Of a DNA stretch of 64,000 nt, positions 34,243-63,164 are shown one piece after another. Location: NCBI RefSeq assembly GCF_030230605.1, contig NZ_JASPDO010000006.1:1-64000 (forward strand), given 5' to 3'. Both the position numbers and the translations under genes were made by a program. The notes beneath the pieces are model-generated. The model was not told where the DNA came from, ran no database searches, and was given only the letters and a program-made list of their open reading frames with translations. The first letter of the stretch is position 1. The number at the start of each line of letters is the position of its first letter. This DNA comes from Brevibacterium sp. UMB1308A (GTDB taxonomy: Bacteria; Actinomycetota; Actinomycetes; Actinomycetales; Brevibacteriaceae).

Positions 34243-34319
34243 CGCGGGGTGGAGCAGCTAGGTAGCTCGCCGGGCTCATAACCCGGAGGTCGGAGGTTCG
34301 AATCCTTCCCCCGCCACCA
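34243..34319 (+). tRNA. Initiator tRNA-fMet (CAT)
   Basis: A 77-nt tRNA with CCA encoded. Acceptor 5' CGCGGGG pairs with CCCCGC from position 2, leaving a 1:72 mismatch (C-C), the initiator hallmark. The anticodon arm CCGGG CTCATAA CCCGG has the three G-C pairs of initiators, and the T-loop is TTCGAAT. A strong terminator follows at once. Confidence 0.95.
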
Positions 34320-34323
34320 AGAC

Positions 34324-34359
34324 AAAGCCCGCTTTACCAAATCTGGTAAAGCGGGCTTT
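34324..34359 (+). terminator. tRNA-fMet terminator
   Basis: Perfect 16-bp inverted repeat AAAGCCCGCTTTACCA / TGGTAAAGCGGGCTTT with an AATC loop. The 3' arm overlaps the left copy of the island repeat. Confidence 0.85.
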
Positions 34360-34364
34360 CGCGT
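34351..34364 (+). repeat. Left 14-bp direct repeat of the hsd island (attL-like)
   Basis: GCGGGCTTTCGCGT, identical to 41132-41145. It covers the 3' arm of the tRNA terminator and the next bases. Confidence 0.7.
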
Positions 34365-34370
34365 GACCTG

Positions 34371-34388
34371 CGAAAACCCGAGTTTTCG
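34371..34388. promoter_or_regulatory. Inverted repeat upstream of hsdM
   Basis: CGAAAAC CCGA GTTTTCG, perfect 7-bp arms, about 100 bp before hsdM; possible operator. A GATAAT -10-like box lies at 34462. Confidence 0.3.
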
Positions 34389-34490
34389 GCCTATAGTCCG
34401 AGCTTGTGGCGTGGCAAACGAGCTGTCGACTTCGACTGTGAGAAGCTCAAAGTGTTTCGTGGATAATCTCGTAGAAATAAGGGCGCCTCT

Positions 34491-36491
34491 ATGTCTGACA
34501 CTTCAGAAATTCTCGACTCGATTACCCCGAAGCAGACTGCCAAAGTCAACAGTCTCAACGCCGCAATCTGGCAAACTGCTGACGACTACTTGCGTCTGAT
34601 CGTCCCGGCTGAAAACTACGGTGACTACATCATCCCGTTCACTGTACTTCGTCGTCTCGAAGGTCGACTGGCACCCACCAAACAGGCTGTGCTGAATCTT
34701 GTCGAACGTGAAAACGCTCAGGGAACCGACCCCGCGATCGTGGGGCTCAAGATTGAGAACATGTTCAAGCTCCGCTTTTGGAACACGTCTGAACTGTCTC
34801 TTGAACGTCTCGCGAACTCCGACGATGCACTTAAACCAGGGTTGAAACAGTACCTCAACACGTTCTCTCCCAACATTTTGGAGATCTGGAATGCGTTCGA
34901 GTTCGACAAGTTGATCGATCTTTTGGACCGTAACAATCAGCTGTGGAACGTCGTTCAGCACTTCGCTTCTATCGACATGTCTGATGAAGCGCTTCAAGAT
35001 CAAACCATGGGCGACATCTTCGAGAACCTGATGTATCGCTCGTTTGCGCGAAAGGGTAAGGACGCTGGTGAGTTTTACACCCCGCGTGATGCGATTCGTC
35101 TGATGACCTCCATATTGTTCACGTCTGATGACACCGAACTTGAAGAAGACGGCATCATCCGGTCTGTGTACGATCCCACCGCTGGGACATGCGGGATGCT
35201 CATTGCAGCTCGTGACGCGCTTCGCGCGATCAACCCCGGTATCGAGGTGGTTGTTGCCGGACAAGAGTTGAAGGAGTCTTCCTTCGCGATGGGGAAGTCT
35301 GACCTGCTGATGCAGGGGTTCAAAGACCCGGAAGTGCTCAAGTTCGGCAACTCACTGACCAATGATCAGTACCAAGGTGACACGTTCGACTACATCATGG
35401 CGAACCCGCCGTATGGCTCATCCTGGAAAGCGTTCCAGAAAGATGTAAAGGAACTCCAAGAACAGGGCGATCCTCGTTTCTCCGAGGGGCTTCCTGCTGT
35501 CAGCGACGGACAAATGCTGTTCCTGATGCATATCGCGCACAAACTTGCTCCTGCTGATGGAGCCACCAAGGGCGGGCGCGCTGCTGTGGTTACGAATGGC
35601 TCCCCACTGTTTACCGGAGATGCCGAAAGCGGTCCGGACGGTATCCGTAAATACTTGATGGGTGCACAAGGTGGCACCGAAGTGCTGGATACAATCATTG
35701 CGCTGCCGAATGACATGTTCTACAACACCGGCATCGCCACCTACATCTGGATTTTGGACCAGAACAAGGAACCCCGTCGCCGTGGGAAAATCCAGTTCAT
35801 CGACGCGACTGAGATTTGCGCGCCAATGCGCAAGAACATGGGACAAAAGCGCGCTGAGTTTACGGAAGACAACATCCGAGAGATCACGAAGATCTACAAG
35901 GATTTTGAAGAGACTGACCGCTCCATCATCGTCACTGCGAACGATCTCACCTACCGCGACGTGCCAATGTTTAAGTTGGCGCACTACGCAGTCAGTGTGA
36001 CTGATGAAACCGTGGCGGAAGCCATGAAGCACAAGTCCGCGTTCCCGGAACATGAAGCGGTCATCCGCGAGATGCGGGGACGCGATTACAACGATCTTCC
36101 CAAAGCGCTGAAGGCTTCTGCGAAGGAACACGGGGTGAAAATGGGCGCTCCACTGCTTCGCCACATCATGAAGGCGTTGGCTGTGGAAGACGAGAACGCG
36201 CCCGCTTCACTGGACGAGAAGGGGAATCCTGTTGTGGATGCATCCTCAAAGGTGATTGAGCGCGTGCCGTACCTAGAGGACGTGTCTGAGCACATGGAAC
36301 GAGAAGTGCTCCCGTTCGTTCCGGATATGCAGTGGGATGAGTCTTTGGCGAAAGTGGGAACGGAACTGCCGTTGACGCGCCTGTTCTACAAGCCGGAGGA
36401 GTCCCGCTCCCTGGAGGAACTGGATGCGGATATCGCTAGTTCCCTGGATCGTATCTACGCCATGTTCCGGAAAGTGCGTGAAGATGACTAG
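34491..36491 (+). CDS. hsdM: Type I restriction-modification DNA methyltransferase subunit HsdM
   Basis: 666 residues. An N-terminal HsdM helical domain (about 15-150) is followed by the adenine N6-methyltransferase: FYTPRDAIRLM, SAM motif I DPTAGTCGMLI (about 222) and catalytic NPPYGSSW (about 303). With HsdS it methylates adenines in the recognition sequence, protecting host DNA. The first gene of a compact hsdM-hsdS-hsdR cassette; it overlaps hsdS by 8 bp. It sits just behind tRNA-fMet and no integrase accompanies it. Confidence 0.95.
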   Translation: MSDTSEILDSITPKQTAKVNSLNAAIWQTADDYLRLIVPAENYGDYIIPFTVLRRLEGRLAPTKQAVLNLVERENAQGTDPAIVGLKIENMFKLRFWNTSELSLERLANSDDALKPGLKQYLNTFSPNILEIWNAFEFDKLIDLLDRNNQLWNVVQHFASIDMSDEALQDQTMGDIFENLMYRSFARKGKDAGEFYTPRDAIRLMTSILFTSDDTELEEDGIIRSVYDPTAGTCGMLIAARDALRAINPGIEVVVAGQELKESSFAMGKSDLLMQGFKDPEVLKFGNSLTNDQYQGDTFDYIMANPPYGSSWKAFQKDVKELQEQGDPRFSEGLPAVSDGQMLFLMHIAHKLAPADGATKGGRAAVVTNGSPLFTGDAESGPDGIRKYLMGAQGGTEVLDTIIALPNDMFYNTGIATYIWILDQNKEPRRRGKIQFIDATEICAPMRKNMGQKRAEFTEDNIREITKIYKDFEETDRSIIVTANDLTYRDVPMFKLAHYAVSVTDETVAEAMKHKSAFPEHEAVIREMRGRDYNDLPKALKASAKEHGVKMGAPLLRHIMKALAVEDENAPASLDEKGNPVVDASSKVIERVPYLEDVSEHMEREVLPFVPDMQWDESLAKVGTELPLTRLFYKPEESRSLEELDADIASSLDRIYAMFRKVREDD

Positions 36492-37584
36492 ATGGCAAAG
36501 TGTTCCGTTCCATACGCTTTTCCGTAGAGTTCCGAAACGTACTGGTTTCCCTGCTGAGGAACTTCTTTCCGTTTACAGAGAATACGGGGTCATCCGCAAA
36601 AGCGACCGGGACGACAATTTCAACCGTCCGGGAAACTTAAATGATTACCAGTTAGTGAAGACTGGCGACTTAGTGCTCAACAAGATGAAGGCTTGGCAGG
36701 GAGCGCTAGGTATCTCACCCCACACTGGCATTGTTTCTCCTGCATACTTTGTCTACACACCTGTTTCTGACAACGATGAAAGCTTCCTTCATTACGCGCT
36801 TCGATGCCGGGACGCAATTGATTACTACGCAGCTCACTCCACCGGGATAAGGGTAAACCAGTGGGACGTCAGCCCTGAACGGTTGGACGCAATGCCGGTC
36901 CCCGTACCTGATCTCGCAACACAGCGCCGGATCGCTGATTACCTCGATAAGGAAATCAGCGAGATGGATGCACTGATCGAAGAGTTTGAAGGGCTGGTTG
37001 CCAGCTTGGAATCCCGCCAGAGAGTATTTGCAACGAAGCTTGTTCAAAACTGCGATTATCCTCTCGTTCCACTTTCGACCCTCGTGTCTGTGGTTTCAGG
37101 AGACTCGATCGAATCTGACTTCATAAAGGCTGAAGGCAAATTTCCCGTCTACGGGGGTAACGGAATACGTGGCTACACAGATTCGTCCAACTGCGATGTT
37201 GAGCGCATTCTAGTGGGCAGGCAAGGAGCGTTGTGCGGAAACGTCCACCTAGCCAAGCCAGATTTCTTTGCTACTGAACATGCGCTGATTGTAAAACCGC
37301 GACAGGAAGTCGATCTCGTTTGGTTGGAACACACGTTGCGCGAGCTGAACCTCGGGGAGCTATCAACATCTGTCGCACAGCCTGGGATCACTGCTACAAA
37401 GGTGTTGCTTCAGCGGGTCAAGCTGCCTCCAATAAGAGAGCAGAGAAGGATTGGCCGAATACTTCAAGACGAGACAGCGCGCATGGACTCGCTCATTGAG
37501 GAGTCCACGCGCCTTATCGAAAACCTGAAAGCACGCAAAACCGCACTTATCACTGAAGTCGTTACCGGGCGGAAAGAGGTCTGA
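36484..37584 (+). CDS. hsdS: Type I restriction-modification specificity subunit HsdS
   Basis: 366 residues with the two-target-domain layout: TRD1 (about 1-145), a central conserved helix after PDLATQRRIADYLDKEI (about 146-190), TRD2 (about 195-315, with FPVYGGNGIRGY and PGITATKVLL), and a second conserved helix after IREQRRIGRIL. The two TRDs differ, as expected for a bipartite asymmetric target, which cannot be predicted here. ATG 36484 overlaps the hsdM stop. The next gene starts 1 base after the stop. Confidence 0.92.
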   Translation: MTRWQSVPFHTLFRRVPKRTGFPAEELLSVYREYGVIRKSDRDDNFNRPGNLNDYQLVKTGDLVLNKMKAWQGALGISPHTGIVSPAYFVYTPVSDNDESFLHYALRCRDAIDYYAAHSTGIRVNQWDVSPERLDAMPVPVPDLATQRRIADYLDKEISEMDALIEEFEGLVASLESRQRVFATKLVQNCDYPLVPLSTLVSVVSGDSIESDFIKAEGKFPVYGGNGIRGYTDSSNCDVERILVGRQGALCGNVHLAKPDFFATEHALIVKPRQEVDLVWLEHTLRELNLGELSTSVAQPGITATKVLLQRVKLPPIREQRRIGRILQDETARMDSLIEESTRLIENLKARKTALITEVVTGRKEV

Positions 37585-37585
37585 A

Positions 37586-40500
37586 ATGGTCAATCCGATT
37601 CTTGAGGAAGCGATGGAGCTAACCATTTGCCGGTCCCTCAACTCTCAAGGCTGGATTTGGAACGAAGGCGCTAATGACGTTGGGTTCGACCCTGAGCTGG
37701 GGCTGTTCCCAGAAGATGTGTTGCACTGGTTGAAAACGCAGCACCCAGAGCAATACGAACGCGCAATTCCACCCACTGCCAATGACACCGAACGCCAGTC
37801 CCGTGAACGAAAACTCCTCACCCGTCTGACAAAAGAACTCGACTACACGCCGATCCTTGACGGCATCACCAAAAAGGTCAACGGCGGACTCTTGGGCACT
37901 CTGCGCGACGGTTTCTCGTTTACCCAAGCCGACCTCGGCACCGTGAACTTCCCAGACATGGCAGGGTTCTTTCCATACGATCCCGCGAAAACAGATGTGA
38001 TCGAGAAAGCCACACACAACCGCTTACGTGTGCTCCAACAAGTCCACTTCGAAAAAGGTGACGGGGGCGAAATTGACCTGGTTCTCCTGGTTAACGGTAT
38101 CCCCGTCATCACAATGGAACTGAAAACGGACAACACTCAGTCCATTGAAGATGCAGTCCTCCAATACAAACACGACCGCAAGCCGCACCGATCCAAACGC
38201 CCACTACTCAACCCCGGACGCTGCCTTGTCCACTTTGCCGTGTCCTCCCGCGAAGTCATGATGACCACGGAACTCAACGGTGCCAACACCGTATTCCTTC
38301 CGTTTAACCAAGGAACCGAAGACGGGCGAGCTGGTAACCCAGACAACCCCAACGGTTACAACGTGTCCTACCTGTGGGAATGGGTGTGCTCACCGGACCT
38401 GCTCTTGCGCATCCTCAAGGACTACGCCCTGTGGGAACCCTCAACTAAAGGTAACGAAGGACGCCTGATCTTCCCCCGCTTTCACCAACTGCGCTCCGTG
38501 GAGCGAGTCACCAGCGACGTTGCAGTCAACGGCACCGGCAGGCGCTACCTCATCCAGCACTCGGCCGGATCCGGCAAGACCAAAACGATTGCGTGGTTGG
38601 CACACCGTGCCAACAAGATGATCCATAGTGACGGCACGAAACTGTTTGACTGCGTCATCGTGGTCACCGACCGTACCGTGCTCGACAAAAACGTGGCAGA
38701 CGGGCTTTCACTACTTCAAGCATCTGAAGGCATGGTCATCAATATCACCAACGATGACACCTCCAAGTCCGAAAACCTGAACCACTACCTCACCCAAGGC
38801 AAACGCATTCTGTCCTGCACGCTTCAGACCTTCCCCGCACTGGCACAAACGATCGACCGTTCGCCAAAACTACGAAACCGTCGCTGGCTTGTCATCATCG
38901 ACGAAGCACACTCCTCACAGCACGGCAAGGCCTCACGCACACTGCTGGAAACACTTTCAGATACGCCTGATGAAATCGCAGAAGCAGCATCACGCGCGGC
39001 TGCTGACATAGAAGGCGGGAAAGATACCGACGGAGGGGAGGAGACGCACAACGAAACACTGACCACCACCTCGGCAGCAAGACTCACTCGCGCTGATAAA
39101 GACCGCTTGCAACAGCAGCGTGACTCCGCTGTAGCGCGCTCATCCAACGTCACTATTGTGGCTCTGACCGCCACCCCCAAAGCGAAGACCCTTGCCGTGT
39201 TCGGAGAACGCTCACCGGACAACCCGGAAACACGAGTGGCGTTTGACCTGTATTCCATGGCGCAGGCTATTGATGAGAAGTTCATCCTAGATGTGCTTCA
39301 GAACTACATATCACTCTCGCTCTACGCAAAAATTGAGGACAAACTTGGTCGAGAAGATGAAGTGGTCCTTGGGGAAGCAAAATCTGCACTCAAAAAGTTT
39401 GTCCGCTCACATGAAAAAACGATCCATTCAAAAGCTGAAGTAGCCGTTGAGCACTTTAACAACAACGTACGCAACCTGCTTGGTTCAACAGCGAAAGCAA
39501 TGGTGGTCTGTGACGACCGAATGAGTGCCTACACCTGGTTTAGAGCGGTCCAGGATGTGATTAAGTCCAACGCCACGTACCAAGGATTAGAAGCACTCGT
39601 GGCGTTTTCTGGCTCACTCGATGTGTCCAAGGATGAAGATGTCGAAGAGATTGTCACAGAATCTTCCCTGAATAACGAGAACGCGCCTGATGGTAAGCGC
39701 CGGATGGAAACCACCAAGATGTTTGACGGAGCTTCGTACAAGTTCCTCATCGTGGCAAACAAGTACCAAACCGGTTTCGATGAGCCTCGGCTGTCTGCCA
39801 TGTATGTGGACAAACCACTTTCCGGTGTTTTAGCGGTGCAGACGCTTTCACGCTTAAACAGGACCATGTCGTCCAAAAACAAGTCCAAAACATTCGTGGT
39901 CGACTTTATTAACGACCCCGAATCGATCCTGCATGCGTTCCAACCGTACTACTCGCAGGCGTCGATCGACACCGATGTGGACCCGGACGTGCTCACTGAT
40001 CTCGCGCGAGTACTGGACACGTCTCAGTTCTACGACATTGAAGAGATGGAAGCCCTAGCCAACGTGGTCATGGACCCGGACGTAGACGTGAAGAAAAAAG
40101 ACTCCTTGATCCGGGCCGGGATTGACCCAATTGTCACCCGCTGGGCCGACTTCTACACCGAAGGAGTGGTGAGTGGAAATAAGGACAACGAGGTCGTAGC
40201 GACGGACTTCCGCACGAACCTAAAAAAGTATGTCCACGCGTGGGACTTCCTCAGCCAGTTCATCGACTTCCAGGACGTGACCCTACACAAGCGAGCCGTT
40301 TTTGCGGACGTCCTGGTGCGCAACCTCAAACTTGGTAAGAAAACGCGCGAAGAGGATTACATCACCGGCGTTGACGTGGTGAAATCTGCAGTCACAGGTG
40401 ATGTGGAAAAAGGGACGAAACTCGAGCTGAACATCGAAGACGCGCAGACTCCGCTACCTGTTCCCGGCTTTGACGGGCGCATCTCATCAGGTGGCGCCTC

Positions 40501-41125
40501 CGATCCCTTGCAAGGAGCATTCCGCAAAGCAGTAGAGGAAGTCAACGAGTTGTTTTCTGCAGCGGGAATTGACATGTCGAACTCCGCGAACACCCGCATG
40601 GTCCACGCAGTGTGGGAAGCACTGGCAAATGACGAAGAAGTGGAGATGCTCGCAACTAAGAACCCACAAGACACCCTGGCAAAGTCTTCGAGACTGCGTG
40701 AAAAAGTACTATCCGCAATTCTTGGGGCGGGCACTCAGCATGAGAAGTTCACTAACCTCATGCTCGGAGGCGACGATGCACTGAACGTGCTGACTGCTGC
40801 CATGTCACGCTTAGCCGTGGCCGCAATGGAAGACAAAGTACGCGGGATCAAAGTTCCTGACAACGCTCTGATCAATGACACTGAGGAACGCTCAGAAGAG
40901 TCACCAGCTACGCGTCGTGTCGAAGAACTACTCGATGTGATGCGCATGCATGCCGGAAGCAACCGCGTTGAAGCACACTTAGCGCGAGTGCTGGATGACG
41001 CGCTGGTGAAGCGTGGAAACTCCAACGTGTTCGAGACTCTACGCGCCGAGTTCTTGAAACATTCACTACCTGTGGACGGGGAGCTTTACCAAGGTGTCGT
41101 GATGTACGCGGTTAAGCGCTATTAA
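37586..41125 (+). CDS. hsdR: Type I restriction endonuclease subunit HsdR
   Basis: 1179 residues. The N-terminal PD-(D/E)xK nuclease has GEIDLVLLVNGIPVITMELK (about 155-175). The superfamily 2 translocase has Walker A SAGSGKTKTIAW (about 330), DEAHSSQHG (about 437) and ALTATPK. A C-terminal helical region (about 850-1179) would contact HsdM/HsdS. It cuts unmodified DNA far from the recognition site after ATP-driven translocation. The reading frame is intact. It ends 6 bases before the right 14-bp island repeat. Confidence 0.95.
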   Translation: MVNPILEEAMELTICRSLNSQGWIWNEGANDVGFDPELGLFPEDVLHWLKTQHPEQYERAIPPTANDTERQSRERKLLTRLTKELDYTPILDGITKKVNGGLLGTLRDGFSFTQADLGTVNFPDMAGFFPYDPAKTDVIEKATHNRLRVLQQVHFEKGDGGEIDLVLLVNGIPVITMELKTDNTQSIEDAVLQYKHDRKPHRSKRPLLNPGRCLVHFAVSSREVMMTTELNGANTVFLPFNQGTEDGRAGNPDNPNGYNVSYLWEWVCSPDLLLRILKDYALWEPSTKGNEGRLIFPRFHQLRSVERVTSDVAVNGTGRRYLIQHSAGSGKTKTIAWLAHRANKMIHSDGTKLFDCVIVVTDRTVLDKNVADGLSLLQASEGMVINITNDDTSKSENLNHYLTQGKRILSCTLQTFPALAQTIDRSPKLRNRRWLVIIDEAHSSQHGKASRTLLETLSDTPDEIAEAASRAAADIEGGKDTDGGEETHNETLTTTSAARLTRADKDRLQQQRDSAVARSSNVTIVALTATPKAKTLAVFGERSPDNPETRVAFDLYSMAQAIDEKFILDVLQNYISLSLYAKIEDKLGREDEVVLGEAKSALKKFVRSHEKTIHSKAEVAVEHFNNNVRNLLGSTAKAMVVCDDRMSAYTWFRAVQDVIKSNATYQGLEALVAFSGSLDVSKDEDVEEIVTESSLNNENAPDGKRRMETTKMFDGASYKFLIVANKYQTGFDEPRLSAMYVDKPLSGVLAVQTLSRLNRTMSSKNKSKTFVVDFINDPESILHAFQPYYSQASIDTDVDPDVLTDLARVLDTSQFYDIEEMEALANVVMDPDVDVKKKDSLIRAGIDPIVTRWADFYTEGVVSGNKDNEVVATDFRTNLKKYVHAWDFLSQFIDFQDVTLHKRAVFADVLVRNLKLGKKTREEDYITGVDVVKSAVTGDVEKGTKLELNIEDAQTPLPVPGFDGRISSGGASDPLQGAFRKAVEEVNELFSAAGIDMSNSANTRMVHAVWEALANDEEVEMLATKNPQDTLAKSSRLREKVLSAILGAGTQHEKFTNLMLGGDDALNVLTAAMSRLAVAAMEDKVRGIKVPDNALINDTEERSEESPATRRVEELLDVMRMHAGSNRVEAHLARVLDDALVKRGNSNVFETLRAEFLKHSLPVDGELYQGVVMYAVKRY

Positions 41126-57627: not shown

Positions 57628-58527
57628 GTGGAGAACGAAACCACGCCAACTGCTGTACGGCGGCGAGACCTTCGCCGTGCACGCAAAGCGCAGTCTCGCA
57701 AGTTCCCCACTTTTGCGAAGTTCACTTCCCTCTCCGCAACACCCCAGACAACCTCGGTTGCCCCAGCTGTGCGCGGTTCGAACGGTGCCGCTTTGCGCGC
57801 TCTGCGTCGCAAGCGCAACGTGACCCTCTCCGCAGTTGGAGCCTTCGCGGTAGCAGGTGCTGCAATGACTGCCACTCTTCTTTCTGGCGTAGGAGCTAGC
57901 TCTTCTGGGCAAGTCACAACCGAAGCAGCTGCGAGCTCACACGCGGTGTCCAGCGAAAGCGTTTCCGGTGGAGCAAACGGCGACGACGACATCCTGGCAG
58001 GACAAAACGGTGCTGTCGGTGGCGTTAAGGCCGACTCGAAGGGCGACCCGCGTGCATCCTCGCTTTCCGTCAAGCGCACTGCTCTTCCTGGCTGCGAAGG
58101 TAAGGTCCCAGAAGGTGAAGCACAAAACGGGCAGTTGCCAGAAGAATGGTTATGCAACCTGGGTATCGGTGACCACAAGTTGCGCCAGGATGCCGCTGTT
58201 GCATTCGCAAAAATGAACGCAGCGTACAAGGCCGACACTGGAAAAGACTTCGAACTCACTGACACATACCGCACCCTGGACGCACAGGTGAGCGTTGCAG
58301 GCCGCAAACCAGGGCTGGCTGCAAAGCCAGGAACGTCCCTGCACGGAATGGGTCTAGCAATCGACTTTGGTGGCGGTGCCGCGCAAGCAAGCGGACCGCT
58401 GTATGACTGGCTCGTGAAGCACGGACACGAATACGGCTGGGAGAACCCAGACTGGGCTAAGTCCTCCAAGTACGAACCATGGCACTGGGAGTATGTACCT
58501 GGTCGTCAAGACGTCAAGGGATACTGA
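57628..58527 (+). CDS. M15 D-Ala-D-Ala carboxypeptidase-like secreted protein
   Basis: 299 residues. A basic N-terminal tail (about 1-65), one hydrophobic helix (about 66-87), a low-complexity linker, then an M15/VanY domain with zinc motifs SLHGMGLAIDFGG (about 233) and EPWHWEYV (about 287). It likely trims peptidoglycan peptides outside the membrane. GTG 57628 has AGGAG 6 bases upstream. A candidate MtrA-type repeat lies in the promoter region. Confidence 0.85.
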   Translation: MENETTPTAVRRRDLRRARKAQSRKFPTFAKFTSLSATPQTTSVAPAVRGSNGAALRALRRKRNVTLSAVGAFAVAGAAMTATLLSGVGASSSGQVTTEAAASSHAVSSESVSGGANGDDDILAGQNGAVGGVKADSKGDPRASSLSVKRTALPGCEGKVPEGEAQNGQLPEEWLCNLGIGDHKLRQDAAVAFAKMNAAYKADTGKDFELTDTYRTLDAQVSVAGRKPGLAAKPGTSLHGMGLAIDFGGGAAQASGPLYDWLVKHGHEYGWENPDWAKSSKYEPWHWEYVPGRQDVKGY

Positions 58528-58611
58528 GCTTAATCCTCCCGTTTAACCAGGGGATCGAGGCGTTGCGCAGTTGCAGGTGCATATGACCCTTTGTATTTGA
58601 GCCTCCAGTGG

Positions 58612-58617
58612 TACACT
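58612..58617 (+). promoter_or_regulatory. -10 box of tRNA-Arg
   Basis: TACACT, 13 bases upstream of the tRNA, with a weak TTGTAT-like -35 at 58591. Confidence 0.4.
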
Positions 58618-58630
58618 TGTCGAGGTTCCC

Positions 58631-58703
58631 GCCCGCGTAGCTCAGTGGATAGAGCGTCTGCCTCCGGAGCAGAAGGTCGTAGGTTCGAATCCTGTCGCGG
58701 GCA
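58631..58703 (+). tRNA. tRNA-Arg (CCG)
   Basis: A 73-nt tRNA without encoded CCA. Acceptor GCCCGCG pairs with CGCGGGC, discriminator A. Anticodon arm TCTGC CTCCGGA GCAGA gives anticodon CCG. T-loop TTCGAAT. Confidence 0.93.
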
Positions 58704-58759
58704 CCGTGTGATCAGTCGGGACATCGTTGACATTGTCAGTCGCCTTGATCGAGTGAAAA

Positions 58760-59554
58760 TCAATAGTTGTACTGCGAGATATCGATGTCGAAGTACATGA
58801 TGAGCGCCATGCCCCATGTGCCAATCAAGGTAAAGAAACCCAGGAACCGCAAGTACCCAACGGTTGTCTTGTCGTGGGACCCCTTGCGCTTTGCTTGAGC
58901 GGCAAGAACCCACGCTGTGACAGCGCCTCCCACAGAGAGCACCACGGCGGCTAGTGCGACAAACATGCGTGGCAACATCGCAACTGGTTGCGCCCACAGC
59001 ACGCCCACCACAATCACAACGATGAAGAACAGTATCCACCCAAAAATACTGAGGATAGGGCGTGCGAGCGTCCAACGGGCTGGAGCCGCAAGAACGACCG
59101 CAAAGAACACGACGAACGCTGCAATGGTGAACAAGAAACCTGCAGTGAGCGGGGTGGACTGCGTGCCCTCACGGAACATCAACCCGGTGAGCGCGCCTGT
59201 CCAGAAACCCAGCAGCAACACAAACACCAAGCTGATTCCACCAAGGTGAACGGGATTGCCAATGCGCTTGCCCAGGGACATGACTGACTCATTTTTAAGC
59301 GCCTCACTTTCCGAGGCGGCAAAGACAGCTTCAGGATTCCTCGCGATCATGTCGGCAAAGTGATAGGGGTCGCCCAGAGTCTGCGGCAAGGGCGAACCGC
59401 CTGATGACGCGACGACGCGGTGAAGGTGGTCAACCGTCCGGTTTATCGTGCCATGATCCACCCCGTTGTGATTCAGCCGGTGGACAACAGCCCACGCCCA
59501 CTGCGCGTCTGCTCCTTGAAGATTGCCAATGGGGCGGTGCGGTGAGTGAGACAT
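58760..59554 (-). CDS. Membrane protein with an N-terminal soluble domain, unknown
   Basis: 264 residues. The first 100 residues are soluble-looking (HRLNHNGVDHGTINRTVDHL, then a Pro/Gly patch), followed by about five transmembrane helices (about 106-128, 137-155, 165-187, 192-214, 232-252). It ends DIDISQYNY. I do not recognise a family. The start codon follows TATAGT at leaderless distance. It is downstream of the protease gene on the same strand, separated by a strong terminator, so it is expressed on its own. Confidence 0.7.
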   Translation of the reverse strand: MSHSPHRPIGNLQGADAQWAWAVVHRLNHNGVDHGTINRTVDHLHRVVASSGGSPLPQTLGDPYHFADMIARNPEAVFAASESEALKNESVMSLGKRIGNPVHLGGISLVFVLLLGFWTGALTGLMFREGTQSTPLTAGFLFTIAAFVVFFAVVLAAPARWTLARPILSIFGWILFFIVVIVVGVLWAQPVAMLPRMFVALAAVVLSVGGAVTAWVLAAQAKRKGSHDKTTVGYLRFLGFFTLIGTWGMALIMYFDIDISQYNY

Positions 59555-59598: not shown

Positions 59599-59630
59599 GT
59601 AGCCCCTCGCTACTGTGAGCGAGGGGCTAC
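59599..59630 (-). terminator. Terminator of the secreted protease gene
   Basis: Perfect 13-bp stem GTAGCCCCTCGCT / AGCGAGGGGCTAC with a 6-base loop, about 30 bases past the stop codon. Confidence 0.75.
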
Positions 59631-59660: not shown

Positions 59661-60884
59661 CTATCCGAAGGTCAGGCCATAGTAGTTCAGGGCGTCGGTG
59701 ACGGGCTGGAAGTACGACTGGCCGTCAACATAGCCACCGTTGAAACCACAGCGCTGCGCTGCCGGTCCACCGGAAGTCATACCTACTGCGTAACCTCCTG
59801 AGGTGTATGCCCCTCCGGAGTCACCGGCTGCCGTGCACACGGTGGAGGTTCCCAGCCCAGAAACCTGAGCGACGGATTGTCCATACTCGTCGGAGTAGGT
59901 CACGGATGCGTTGTATCCAGTCACCTGTCCACATGTGACACCCGAGGTTGCTCCGGTCCGGCATAGGTCTGTTCCTACGGGTGCTTTCCAGTCACCTCGG
60001 GACGAGTCCGAAATGCCCGCATTGGAACCATATGTGTTGACGTCAGTGGACAGATCGGAGCCTTGCGCCAGAACTACGTAACCGATGTCGTAATCCGGTT
60101 GGCCATCATATGACGTGAACGCAGTGTCACCGTGCGTTGCGAACAAGCTACCATTTGCATAGAACGACTGCTGGTTTTCAACGCAGTGTCCAGCCCACAC
60201 CATGGCCTTTTGACCATCACGCGTGGTTGCTGGGAAGCCGGCGGAGCAGTATCCGCCCGATTCCATGCTGATTTTGTCCCCGCCGGCTGCGCTGGCGTGA
60301 ATTTCGTTGCGCTTACCTTGGGTGAACTCGACAGCGGAGCCAAACTTCTTGGCCTTCTTTACCAAGCTGGAGTTGGCGTTCTTTTCTGTCACAGTGATGA
60401 CCACACGGTCTTTGCGAATGTCCGGGGCTACTGATGCGACATCGTCCCCATTCTTCAACTCTTTATTGAGTGATTCAACGATCGAGTTGAGTTTGCTCTC
60501 GCCGTTTTTGACGTGGCGAACCTTGAGGCCTTTCTTTTTGGCTGCTTTCTCTGCCTTGCTTCCCTGTGGCGCCTGCACAACGAGTTTGTTGTCCTTATCA
60601 AAGAACGCTCCATCGTAGGAGTAGCCGTCCTTCTTGAGGTCGTACAGGTTGTTGTTTTGGCTGGCCTGCTTTTCCAAGTGGGCTCGCTGTGCTGCTTCAG
60701 AGCGGCCCGACGATTTGGCCATGATTTTGACCTGCTCGTCGCTAAACGACGGGTTGATGTGTTTGACCTCTGGTGATGGTTTCACCGCCTGAGGTCCGGC
60801 GTGGACAGCGGTTGGTTGTGTGACCGCCAGTCCGGAAAGTGCGAACGCTCCAGCCAGTGCGGTGTATAGGATTTTTCTCTTCAC
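59661..60884 (-). CDS. Secreted S1 serine protease with prodomain (alpha-lytic/streptogrisin-like)
   Basis: 407 residues. A Sec signal peptide (VKRKILYTALAGAFALSG..., cleavage near AVHA), an alpha-lytic-type prodomain (about 30-205), and a chymotrypsin-fold protease with His in VWAGHCV, Asp in DYDIGYVVL and Ser in AAGDSGGAYTSGG. Three cysteine pairs are likely in the mature part. GTG 60884 follows AAGGAG at 7 bases. It is divergent from a small secreted peptide and a two-component system, which may control it. Confidence 0.9.
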   Translation of the reverse strand: MKRKILYTALAGAFALSGLAVTQPTAVHAGPQAVKPSPEVKHINPSFSDEQVKIMAKSSGRSEAAQRAHLEKQASQNNNLYDLKKDGYSYDGAFFDKDNKLVVQAPQGSKAEKAAKKKGLKVRHVKNGESKLNSIVESLNKELKNGDDVASVAPDIRKDRVVITVTEKNANSSLVKKAKKFGSAVEFTQGKRNEIHASAAGGDKISMESGGYCSAGFPATTRDGQKAMVWAGHCVENQQSFYANGSLFATHGDTAFTSYDGQPDYDIGYVVLAQGSDLSTDVNTYGSNAGISDSSRGDWKAPVGTDLCRTGATSGVTCGQVTGYNASVTYSDEYGQSVAQVSGLGTSTVCTAAGDSGGAYTSGGYAVGMTSGGPAAQRCGFNGGYVDGQSYFQPVTDALNYYGLTFG

Positions 60885-60979
60885 TGAGTTCTCCTTTGTC
60901 GAATGGGAACACTTCCACTTTTTCGTAATGTGAGGTTGGTCACCATTGCGCAAAAGTCAGCTTCGAGAAGAATTTCGAC

Positions 60980-60991
60980 AGGGGCGCCCCT
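60980..60991. promoter_or_regulatory. 12-bp palindrome in the protease/peptide divergent region
   Basis: AGGGGCGCCCCT, perfect, 96 bp upstream of the protease start and 70 bp upstream of the peptide start. Candidate operator, possibly for the nearby response regulator. Confidence 0.35.
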
Positions 60992-61060
60992 GACCTTAGT
61001 GGGGGAGCTATGACGAAAGTAGTATTGCCTGGGTCACACTTTGCCTAGCACTATTGGAGT

Positions 61061-61213
61061 ATGAAAAAGCTCACATATGCAGTGTTGTCAGGTCTTTTAG
61101 TTCTAGGAGTTAGTGCCCCCGCTCCTGCGGTCGCTAGCGAAGATCCCACGATTCCGTGGTTCTGCTATAGCCGTCCAATTATGGGTATTTGCCCTGCTGA
61201 ACTGCTCAAATAG
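61061..61213 (+). CDS. Small secreted two-cysteine peptide
   Basis: A 50-residue frame with a textbook signal peptide: KK at the N-terminus, hydrophobic core (TYAVLSGLLVLGVSA), and AVA|S cleavage. The predicted mature part is about 25 residues with a CYSRPIMGIC loop (C-x8-C) and several prolines. The start is 1 base after GGAG, so it is probably leaderless (CACTAT box 6 bases upstream, TTGCCT 18 bases before that). It lies between a secreted protease gene and a histidine kinase gene. Function unknown: a signal, a protease inhibitor or a toxin-like peptide are all possible. The existence of the gene is inferred from signal-peptide character and position. Confidence 0.6.
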   Translation: MKKLTYAVLSGLLVLGVSAPAPAVASEDPTIPWFCYSRPIMGICPAELLK

Positions 61214-61260
61214 CTCGTCTCTAGCGTGAAATAAAACGTAATCTACGTCACTATGTGTTG

Positions 61261-61266
61261 TATGAT
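61261..61266 (+). promoter_or_regulatory. -10 box of the histidine kinase gene
   Basis: TATGAT, 6 bases before ATG 61273. Confidence 0.5.
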
Positions 61267-61272
61267 CATGCA

Positions 61273-62481
61273 ATGCGCAGAATGGGTCGCGTCGTCAGGG
61301 ATGATACGCAAACAGTCGGAAGCAGCATCATTCCACTGACCCTCGCAGGTCTTTTCGCACTCGCAAGTCTGCTTGATCAATCCACGTACGCACTTGGCCT
61401 TGCCGCAGTGGTCATTGTTCTAGTGATTAGCGTCGGAATTGCGCTCATGGTGGTGACTCCGTGGATCGCGGTAGGTGTCTGTGCGCTGATGGTCGTTGTA
61501 TCGGTCATTGTTGACGTCACCTTCTTTGGCGTTGCGGCCCTGTTGCTACCCGTGACTGCGGGTTACATGGTTGTCCGCGGTAACAAATGGGCCGGGTACG
61601 CATTCATGATCACCGTGGCAGTGTTGTTGAGCGGGGCTGTTATGACGTCCGAGGTGTCGCACGCAGTTCTCGTGTCGTCCGTAGTGTTCTGGGTGATAGT
61701 GGGAGCGATTGCTCTGGGTGGAGGTCACTTAGTGCGATACCTGCTGATGCGTGAAGCACGATTAAAAGAACATGCGCGGCTCTCTCTAGACGAATTGCGT
61801 ACTGAACTTTCTCGCGATCTCCACGATTCGATCGGTGGAGTTCTTACCCGTGTTTCACTTCTTGCCCAGCAGGCACGCATGTCTGAACCTGCAAAAGTGA
61901 CTGCGAACCTGGATCAGATCGTGAACGAGGCTCATTCGGCGACCGGTGAAGTTCGCGTTCTTATTAGCCGGCTGCGGACACTTGACGACAAAATCCACGG
62001 TGCTCGACCACCTCGGGACGCCGAACTAACGCGCGGCGACAACAGCGATGAAGCAAGCGCAACCGCTGAAGCGGACGTGAAACGCGCCATTCAACGTTTT
62101 TCAGAACAGCTGGACGCCTTCGGGTTTGAGGTGAATGTGTATACGACACCGGGCGGGATCTACGCTTTGCAAAACTACACAGGCGTGGTGAGCCGGCTCC
62201 TTCACGAAGCATTACTCAATACGGTGAAATATGCCGACCCTCAATGGCCCGTGAGCTTCATCGTCGGGCTCAATGACCACGTGAGCCTCGTCTTCTCTAA
62301 TACGATTCGCGAAGACGCCTCGGGTGTGGACAGTTCTGGTTTTGGACTGGAGTCTTTGACGCGGGACTTGGGGGCGCACGGTGGATCGCTTACAACCAGG
62401 CGGGACCGCCTCTGTGAGGGCAAGGAACAATGGGTTTTGGAGATTCGGTTGCCTGGTGCACACCAAAGGACAGTGTCATGA
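61273..62481 (+). CDS. NarL-type sensor histidine kinase
   Basis: 402 residues. Five or six transmembrane helices in the first 165 residues with almost no extracellular loops, then a HisKA_3 dimerisation helix with the phospho-His in LSRDLHDSIGGVLTRVSLL (about 183-201), and an HATPase domain with N-box LLHEALLNTVKYAD (about 310) and FGLESLTRDLGAHGG. The short loops suggest it senses something in or near the membrane. ATG 61273 fits the -10 spacing. It overlaps the regulator gene by 4 bp. Confidence 0.88.
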   Translation: MRRMGRVVRDDTQTVGSSIIPLTLAGLFALASLLDQSTYALGLAAVVIVLVISVGIALMVVTPWIAVGVCALMVVVSVIVDVTFFGVAALLLPVTAGYMVVRGNKWAGYAFMITVAVLLSGAVMTSEVSHAVLVSSVVFWVIVGAIALGGGHLVRYLLMREARLKEHARLSLDELRTELSRDLHDSIGGVLTRVSLLAQQARMSEPAKVTANLDQIVNEAHSATGEVRVLISRLRTLDDKIHGARPPRDAELTRGDNSDEASATAEADVKRAIQRFSEQLDAFGFEVNVYTTPGGIYALQNYTGVVSRLLHEALLNTVKYADPQWPVSFIVGLNDHVSLVFSNTIREDASGVDSSGFGLESLTRDLGAHGGSLTTRRDRLCEGKEQWVLEIRLPGAHQRTVS

Positions 62482-63164
62482 ATGTTCCCGTAACGCGTGT
62501 GAGTGTCGTTGACGATGACCCGTTCGCGCGCAAAATCATTTGCGAACTGCTCAATGCGCAGAGCGATCTTACCGTGGTGAGCTCGTATGACGACGGCCAG
62601 GCGCTTATCGACGACATCGACAGTGACATTGCGCCACCTACAGACGTGTACCTGTGTGATATTTCAATGCCAAAGCTGGACGGCATCGAGACGACAAAAG
62701 CTGTACGCGAACGGGGAAACACCACCCCGATCATGCTTCTCACCTCGTATGACGTGGAAGAACGTTTCGCGCAAGGGATGCAAGCGGGAGCAAACGGATA
62801 CCTCATTAAGACTTCGGATATCAGTCAGATCAGGGCAGCAATTCTCTCAGTTGCCGCTGGCGCCGCCGTTTTCTCGCCAGATGCAGCCGGGTTTTCTCGT
62901 ACGGTTGCGGTACACGAAACGACCGGGCAAACACCGGCGGACCTTTACGGATTAACAGAACGGGAAGAAGCAATTCTTACGCAGCTGTGTCGCGGGCAGT
63001 CCAACTACGAAATTGCGCGCTTCCTAGGGATCAGTGAAGGCACGGTTAAAGTCCACATCACGTCGATCATGAAGAAGGCCAATGTACGGTCGCGCTTGGA
63101 GCTTGTGGTTCAGGCGTTTAATTCGGGGGCCGTGGAACCTATGAGCGCTGACCGGCACCGCTGA
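62478..63164 (+). CDS. NarL/LuxR-type response regulator
   Basis: 228 residues. A receiver domain (DDDPFARKI at the start, phospho-acceptor Asp in LCDISMPKLDG at about 54, Lys in YLIKTSD) and a LuxR-type DNA-binding domain (LTEREEAILTQLCRGQSNYE, then ISEGTVKVHITSIMKKANV). It is the cognate partner of the overlapping kinase. A plausible target is the divergent protease/peptide region. ATG 62478 overlaps the kinase stop (ATGA). Confidence 0.92.
   Translation: MNVPVTRVSVVDDDPFARKIICELLNAQSDLTVVSSYDDGQALIDDIDSDIAPPTDVYLCDISMPKLDGIETTKAVRERGNTTPIMLLTSYDVEERFAQGMQAGANGYLIKTSDISQIRAAILSVAAGAAVFSPDAAGFSRTVAVHETTGQTPADLYGLTEREEAILTQLCRGQSNYEIARFLGISEGTVKVHITSIMKKANVRSRLELVVQAFNSGAVEPMSADRHR

Follow-up and report, generated by a model that had tools for sequence, protein, structure and literature searches.

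A candidate peptide-signalling locus in Brevibacterium combining a secreted protease, a two-cysteine peptide and a sensor-regulator pair

Closest described systems and how the locus compares

The best-known cases of peptide signalling by way of two-component kinases come from Firmicutes. In the agr system a short-loop kinase reads a ring peptide, with positive feedback and an exoprotease output, and in ComQXPA the ComA regulator has a LuxR-type output domain. In a ComQXPA census, the ComP kinase carries HisKA_3 (PF07730), the ComX precursor has a Trp within 5-10 residues of its C-terminus, and no locus was found outside Firmicutes (PMC4008528). According to a second study, exoproteases induced by ComX degrade ComX (PMC5799266), which gives a parallel for the protease of the module described here. 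For Actinobacteria, passages of a third source name mainly butyrolactones as signals, and peptides only in general terms (PMC4748050).

The locus lies in a 64,000-nucleotide stretch of Brevibacterium DNA (the window) and is a four-gene unit found in few Brevibacterium species: a secreted protease, a tiny two-cysteine secreted peptide, and a sensor-regulator pair. It resembles ComQXPA in its HisKA_3 kinase (PF07730), in a regulator with a receiver and LuxR-type output (Pfam Response_reg and GerE), in the pre-peptide gene before the kinase, and in the variability of signal and sensor. It differs in the Sec signal and two cysteines of the peptide and in a shorter kinase sensor of about five segments. 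The only Trp of the peptide is residue 33 of 50, unlike the Trp near the C-terminus of ComX, and neither a ComQ prenyl transferase nor a ComX domain turned up in a Pfam scan of seven neighbouring products. The likeness to agr consists of a ring-shaped peptide (here a disulfide is proposed), a short-loop kinase and, as proposed below, positive feedback and an exoprotease output. However, the regulator of the module has GerE rather than LytTR and the kinase is of the HisKA_3 type, and the Pfam matches of the neighbours include neither AgrB nor a LytTR regulator. The kinase profile also matches the phosphorylation domains of DesK and YocF in solved structures, but the match is confined to that domain, and a private secreted peptide and a protease adjoin this pair. 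A literature search by titles, abstract openings and term counts, with preprints and most subscription journals outside its scope, recognised no account of this locus.

We propose, with a probability of roughly 0.6, that the locus encodes an autoinducing peptide, exported by Sec and looped by a disulfide, together with the ComP/DesK-type kinase that reads it; the peptide would feed back on its own promoter, with the protease as output or processor. The small gene would give a Sec-exported pre-peptide whose C-terminal loop would form outside the cell through a disulfide. Based on the co-variation described below, this loop may be the ligand of the membrane sensor in the adjoining HisKA_3 kinase. 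HisKA_3 kinases phosphorylate NarL-type regulators, and the kinase would act likewise on its partner. The regulator is predicted to bind an inverted repeat (the box) 5' of the peptide start and to raise peptide transcription, a positive feedback. The divergent protease, which is co-inherited and has the intergenic region in common with the peptide, would most likely be the output, and could trim or destroy the signal as well. If true, this would be a minimal system with no modification enzyme or dedicated exporter, and its signal would be short enough to synthesise, making Brevibacterium peptide communication directly testable. The species series of peptide-sensor pairs would also let one study peptide recognition by a kinase through its membrane helices.

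Genes and features of the module

An earlier note on this DNA described a cluster of a secreted S1 protease, a 50-residue peptide and a NarL-type kinase-regulator pair, and a kinase with almost no extracellular loops. Both descriptions were borne out by Pfam domains, the sequence itself and Kyte-Doolittle analysis. The protease gene (59661..60884, minus strand) encodes a secreted serine protease with an alpha-lytic prodomain (Pfam PF02983) that aligns with solved S1 protease chains in PDB; His233, Asp264/266 and Ser356 are invariant in the protease alignment. By prodomain and catalytic residues it is an ordinary alpha-lytic/streptogrisin S1 member. An inverted repeat 3' of this gene, GTAGCCCCTCGC...GCGAGGGGCTAC (59599..59630, no strand assigned), was read from the sequence and is missing from the terminator-scan output.

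The kinase gene (61273..62481, plus strand) encodes a membrane sensor with five hydrophobic segments and short loops by Kyte-Doolittle. It starts at ATG 61273 or at GTG 61255, 59 or 41 nt from the peptide stop. A -10-like TATGAT (61261..61266, plus strand), noted by eye 6 nt 5' of the kinase ATG, is possibly a leaderless promoter of its own for kinase and regulator. The response regulator (62478..63164, plus strand) has its ATG at 62478, overlapping the kinase stop codon, and its best NCBIfam match is NarL, under the cutoff of that model.

The peptide gene (61061..61213, plus strand) encodes a 50-aa secreted pre-peptide with a lysine-rich start, a hydrophobic core, an AxA site and a C-X8-C motif; the loop codons for CYSRPIMGIC are at 61163..61192 (plus strand). 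By eye, a -10-like CACTAT (61049..61054, plus strand) lies 6 nt 5' of the peptide ATG and would fit a leaderless start; it is absent from the list of the sigma-70 scan. Longer starts were rejected for the five database entries that open further upstream (P0001, P0002, P0004, P0020 and P0024), because the added stretch reads through the box (TKVVL in 5/5 entries) and B. luteolum and B. gallinarum have TAC at the upstream ATG of the window. A further entry, P0022, starts four residues earlier than the adopted start, downstream of the box. The peptide has no Pfam match, NCBIfam and PHROGs gave no match for peptide or protease, and viral contigs gave nothing.

The peptide frame is kept in B. mcbrellneri (dN 0.23, dS 1.17), and dN/dS is about 0.2 in two species pairs. 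The frame is a gene conserved by purifying selection rather than a chance ORF. That it is untranslated, or arises as a by-product of promoter conservation, is hardly credible: the upstream box alone could keep the DNA conserved, but dN/dS is low in both pairs, the signal, Cys pair and position are kept across clades, and Brevibacterium records annotate the peptide as a hypothetical protein. The earlier note had asked whether relatives with the kinase keep the frame and the cysteines. The frame is present in all three kinase genomes checked, and both cysteines are constant across clades. The remainder of the mature part varies by clade (FCYSRPIMGIC in the window, ICWVWKVAQLC in B. gallinarum), and the loops compared were CYSRPIMGIC, CYMGRPIIGIC, CWVWKVAQLC and CLVWKVKMLC.

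Divergence, inheritance and relatives

Between B. luteolum and B. gallinarum the fastest-changing parts are the peptide (41/52 identical residues, 79%) and the kinase sensor (142/171, 83%). The kinase core (248/263, 94%), the regulator (230/235, 98%), the two proteases (397/413 and 394/411, 96%) and the sensors of two control kinases (187/199, 94%, and 306/312, 98%) are more conserved; identity counts were compared by Fisher test. In the window clade the peptide is kept and the sensor is kept too, with 96% in the sensor vs 62% in the catalytic domain for P0007. Peptide and sensor thus appear to vary in step in both comparisons, although pairs are few: the co-variation covers five kinase-peptide pairs from two clades, compared by identity, with the P0001-P0007 pairing presumed.

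The co-variation and the box suit either sign of regulation and would also fit a peptide that acts on the kinase as negative feedback or accessory, damping a kinase that senses some other cue such as envelope state, nutrients or protease products. We consider this unlikely, as pheromones are the more typical case of a mature part that switches from clade to clade. We rate as equally improbable that the peptide is a bacteriocin-like small effector, or one directed at a host or a surface, made under control of the two-component system in response to another stimulus, with the protease as a second effector. A small, cationic-ended, two-Cys secreted peptide with a variable loop in a regulated locus would suit such a role, but the neighbours read hold no immunity or dedicated export gene, and an effector would not need a sensor that shifts in step with it.

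The kinase occurs in 3/57 Brevibacterium genomes, the peptide adjoins it in 3/3 and also in the window, and the protease is confined to the same three. In a close relative (G025) the protease, the peptide, the kinase and nearly the whole regulator are gone, leaving a scar whose left edge is the left half of the inverted repeat at 59599..59630. The module appears to be inherited and lost as a unit, which would support the signal reading; against this, a single deletion takes out neighbours whether they cooperate or not.

Two genomes of a second bacterial family (G115 and G242) have a comparable gene set. Their peptides were found by reading, one among the listed ORFs and the other in a translation of the DNA, after an earlier small-ORF rule (<=75 aa) had missed both and flagged only noise in that family. 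The rule used here (a short secreted ORF carrying, close to its C-terminus, two Cys at a spacing of 7-11 residues) was written after both had been seen, so its matches there are no blind test. Across 18 sources with 208,590 bases it gave 9 matches, with this peptide as the single match within the 64-kb window. The background in those bases is 3 further matches, all in L001-L003 and away from the module, and there were zero in 75,175 additional bases. When the G115 regulator was the query, the Brevibacterium module regulator ranked 6th in G001, 1st in G002 and 2nd in G003; with the G115 kinase, the module kinase ranked 4th, 1st and 3rd, respectively. The best matches in G242 were its own module genes. 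The second-family kinases and regulators are at most candidate orthologues of those in Brevibacterium, which counts against the signal reading.

The protease of the module shares its prodomain and catalytic residues with alpha-lytic and streptogrisin proteases, but among its control relatives, at 9 places spread over G507 and six larger genomes, the rule finds no peptide (0/9), and the one NarL pair among them (1/9) is unrelated and belongs to an ABC-transporter operon. At 5/12 protease places (the second copy of G115, and G362, G304, G119 and G321) there is no NarL regulator within 8 kb and no peptide by the rule.

These places bear on the second of two hypotheses in the earlier note, which took the peptide either for a signal read by the kinase or for a loop peptide, closed by a disulfide, that inhibits the divergent S1 protease. 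Adjacency and a protease common to the same 3/57 genomes favour inhibition, and loop peptides are able to inhibit S1 proteases. However, the proteases are 96% identical where the peptide is 79%, the loop type differs from clade to clade at about 60% identity of the proteases, the loops contain no Bowman-Birk-type motif (C-T-P1-S-x-P-P-x-C in the reactive loop), and the 5/12 places above lack a peptide by the rule. The conservation contrast weakens the inhibitor reading, which we give a slim chance, slimmer than that of an effector. The signal reading gains, strengthened by a sensor that tracks the peptide, a box that precedes it, joint inheritance and loss, and the comparable set in the second family. 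At even odds, we would extend it to a new family of autoinducing peptides in Actinomycetota, Sec-exported and unmodified apart from the disulfide loop. Each would be paired with a HisKA_3 kinase of short loops, a regulator of the NarL type and a co-inherited S1 protease, with separate pherotypes among Brevibacterium species and a like set in the second family.

The conserved box

The box, TATGACGAAAGTAGTATTG (61009..61027, plus strand), is a 19-bp inverted repeat about 45 bp 5' of the peptide start and a candidate regulator-binding site. It is the best-conserved stretch of the intergenic alignment (top 19-mer in alignment A3), with 17/19 columns invariant across 4 species. Allowing one mismatch, there were 6 matches in 5/57 genomes vs 5 in 4 for the reversed control. 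As these counts are not above the control, the specificity of the box rests on exact copies and location. A wider regulon may be hinted at in G002, where a second exact 15-mer of the box lies 5' of a gene for a small membrane protein (L009) and an aminotransferase-like frame (L008) has a weaker copy within its start; neither of these extra copies occurs in G003. Half-sites TACGAC were noticed by eye far 5' of the second protease copies.

The peptide gene and its variants

Four genes sit between the membrane-protein gene and argS in the window: the S1 protease (59661-60884, leftwards), a 50-aa secreted frame (61061-61213, rightwards), a HisKA_3 kinase (61273-62481, rightwards) and a NarL-type regulator (62478-63164, rightwards). 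The earlier note's description of a protease facing away from a small secreted frame, followed by a kinase/regulator pair, is borne out in the points checked. The window source, a Brevibacterium, is close to B. mcbrellneri ATCC 49030 (98% identity in an ArgS fragment, 93% in the pre-module membrane protein). To the left of the module (57628-59554) lie a VanY-type carboxypeptidase gene (Pfam PF02557), tRNA-Arg and the membrane protein, which has no Pfam match. Farther away, behind a tRNA-Met gene (34243-41125), are HsdM-, HsdS- and HsdR-like frames, which we take to resemble a type I restriction-modification set.

Sequence comparisons indicate that the 50-aa frame is a gene whose product has an export signal and paired cysteines. 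A search of related genomes, as the earlier note advised, located the frame in B. mcbrellneri at the equivalent position, and B. luteolum and B. gallinarum also have a peptide at the corresponding spot. Protein searches returned four relatives of the window peptide and six of the luteolum/gallinarum type; B. luteolum and B. otitidis are among the record names. Rough dN/dS values from these short sequences are 0.23/1.17 for the window and mcbrellneri peptides and 0.16/0.91 for those of gallinarum and luteolum. The luteolum and gallinarum peptides were not linked to the window peptide by tblastn at E 1, and the mature part switches type between clades (compared parts: window WFCYSRPIMGICPAELLK, mcbrellneri WFCYMGRPIIGICPAEMLK, gallinarum NICWVWKVAQLCSNVKG, luteolum NICLVWKVKMLCSNVKPNG). 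Kept across the two types are the signal peptide, the position, a lysine near the end and the two cysteines, whose conservation had been raised as a check. The loop spans eight residues in the window, gallinarum and luteolum and nine in mcbrellneri, and is altered in further variants, for example CLVWKVAQLC and CLIWKVSGLC.

A conserved box before the peptide gene

NarL-type regulators recognise spaced inverted heptamers. An inverted repeat, TAYGACGAAAGTNGTATTG (61009-61027), lies about 45 bp ahead of the start of the peptide. No other 19 bases in the alignment of intergenic region and peptide gene are better conserved, 17 of the 19 columns being invariant in four sequences. Allowing ≤2 mismatches, its 18-mer occurs once each in genomes G001 and G003 and three times in G002 (B. 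luteolum); the reversed control has zero occurrences in these three. With ≤1 mismatch, the 15-mer has 6 matches in 5 of 57 genomes and its reversed control 5 in 4 of 57. Because these counts are similar, the case for the box rests on place and exact 15-mer copies, of which there are three, confined to G002 and G003. Five of the database peptides start farther upstream and have TKVVL at the box, the residues that its translation would give. A second exact 15-mer in B. luteolum (L009 1500-1600; G002:C15:131421), not found in G003, precedes a frame for a membrane protein of 158 aa, which in turn lies upstream of an isoleucyl-tRNA-synthetase-like frame. By eye, -10-like CACTAT and TATGAT lie 6 nt before the peptide and kinase ATGs, respectively, at leaderless-transcript spacing; the promoter scan lists neither.

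Co-inheritance, and probable co-variation of sensor and peptide

Judged from genome searches, the module is co-inherited. The kinase (1e-15) was found in 3 of 57 Brevibacterium genomes and the protease (1e-30) in the same three (p 3e-5 when shared ancestry is left out of account). Among 396 genomes of the order, a kinase profile at 1e-25, with at most four candidates scored per genome, recovered only those three. The close relative G025 (ArgS 96%, VanY 92% identity) had no kinase or protease match at these thresholds in the 57-genome searches and no peptide match within the 14 kb fetched. Its VanY-type gene, tRNA-Arg and membrane-protein gene are kept, as they are beside the module in mcbrellneri. 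Between the membrane-protein gene and argS, G025 carries a deletion scar (L087 3750-3960; G025:C1:270000-284000) in which the repeat downstream of the protease gene is reduced to its left half, followed by the regulator's last 28 codons (75% identical). In luteolum and gallinarum, vanY adjoins argS without the module between; the module has another location, close to a gene for an ABC-transporter ATPase, and is accompanied by a second protease. The gallinarum copies are in tandem beside the module, separated by a short run of N (L003 6502-9457), and the second luteolum copy is at a contig end.

Comparison of five kinase-peptide pairs from two clades suggests that the sensor (the stretch of the kinase ahead of its phosphorylation motif) varies in step with the peptide. 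When luteolum is compared with gallinarum, identity is 142/171 in the module sensor and 248/263 in the remaining core, 230/235 in the regulator, 397/413 and 394/411 in the proteases and 41/52 in the peptide. Three control region pairs were fetched and one, without a kinase recognised by motif, was dropped; for the two orthologous kinases kept as controls, the figures are 187/199 and 306/312 (sensor) and 214/239 and 234/236 (rest). With the reservation that sites are not independent, Fisher p is 2.6e-4 for module sensor against module core, 3.5e-8 against pooled control sensors, and 1.0 for module core against control cores. Database kinases compared with the luteolum type match this trend, the sensor being less conserved than the catalytic domain (P0016 74%/98%, P0017 72%/96%, P0018 90%/98%). 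Within the window clade the pattern is reversed in cases where the peptide is kept: kinase P0007 has a sensor 96% identical and a catalytic domain 62% identical, and peptide P0001, presumed its partner solely since each contig measures 9591, is 98% identical. Kinase P0011 (82% sensor, 70% catalytic domain) is almost identical to the kinase of B. mcbrellneri, a species whose peptide has an altered loop.

In the mechanism proposed as most likely, the peptide loop would be closed by a disulfide and recognised by the kinase sensor; phosphorylation, binding of the conserved box and activation would follow, with the protease as a putative output or processor. The nearest analogue is ComX-ComP-ComA (PMC4008528, PMC5799266), but the Brevibacterium module does not belong to that system because ComQ and ComX features are missing from the neighbouring products scanned with Pfam. 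For Streptomyces, a passage of a 2026 review (PMC13220807) names butyrolactones.

A second family

Of the 396 genomes searched from the order, 9 gave protease matches at 1e-35, at 12 places in all. G115, G242 and G362 belong to one other family. In G115 and G242, a HisKA_3 kinase and NarL-type regulator are followed by the protease, and a small secreted protein divergent from the kinase has a C-terminal two-cysteine loop (VGVFCRQAYAWGICKPGTRK and SDFICTLVAPELPYLCKKKKK). A rule for short secreted frames with two cysteines 7-11 residues apart near the C-terminus, written after both of these peptides had been seen, gave 9 matches in 208,590 bases from 18 sources, 6 beside these kinases and 3 elsewhere, and no match in the 75,175 bases surrounding 9 control proteases. 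The two families' signalling pairs may have been assembled in parallel rather than inherited from a common ancestor. Behind the second-family protease of G115 (L034 5609-7483) are frames of 175 and 200 aa for two more secreted-looking proteins, possibly extra members of that locus.
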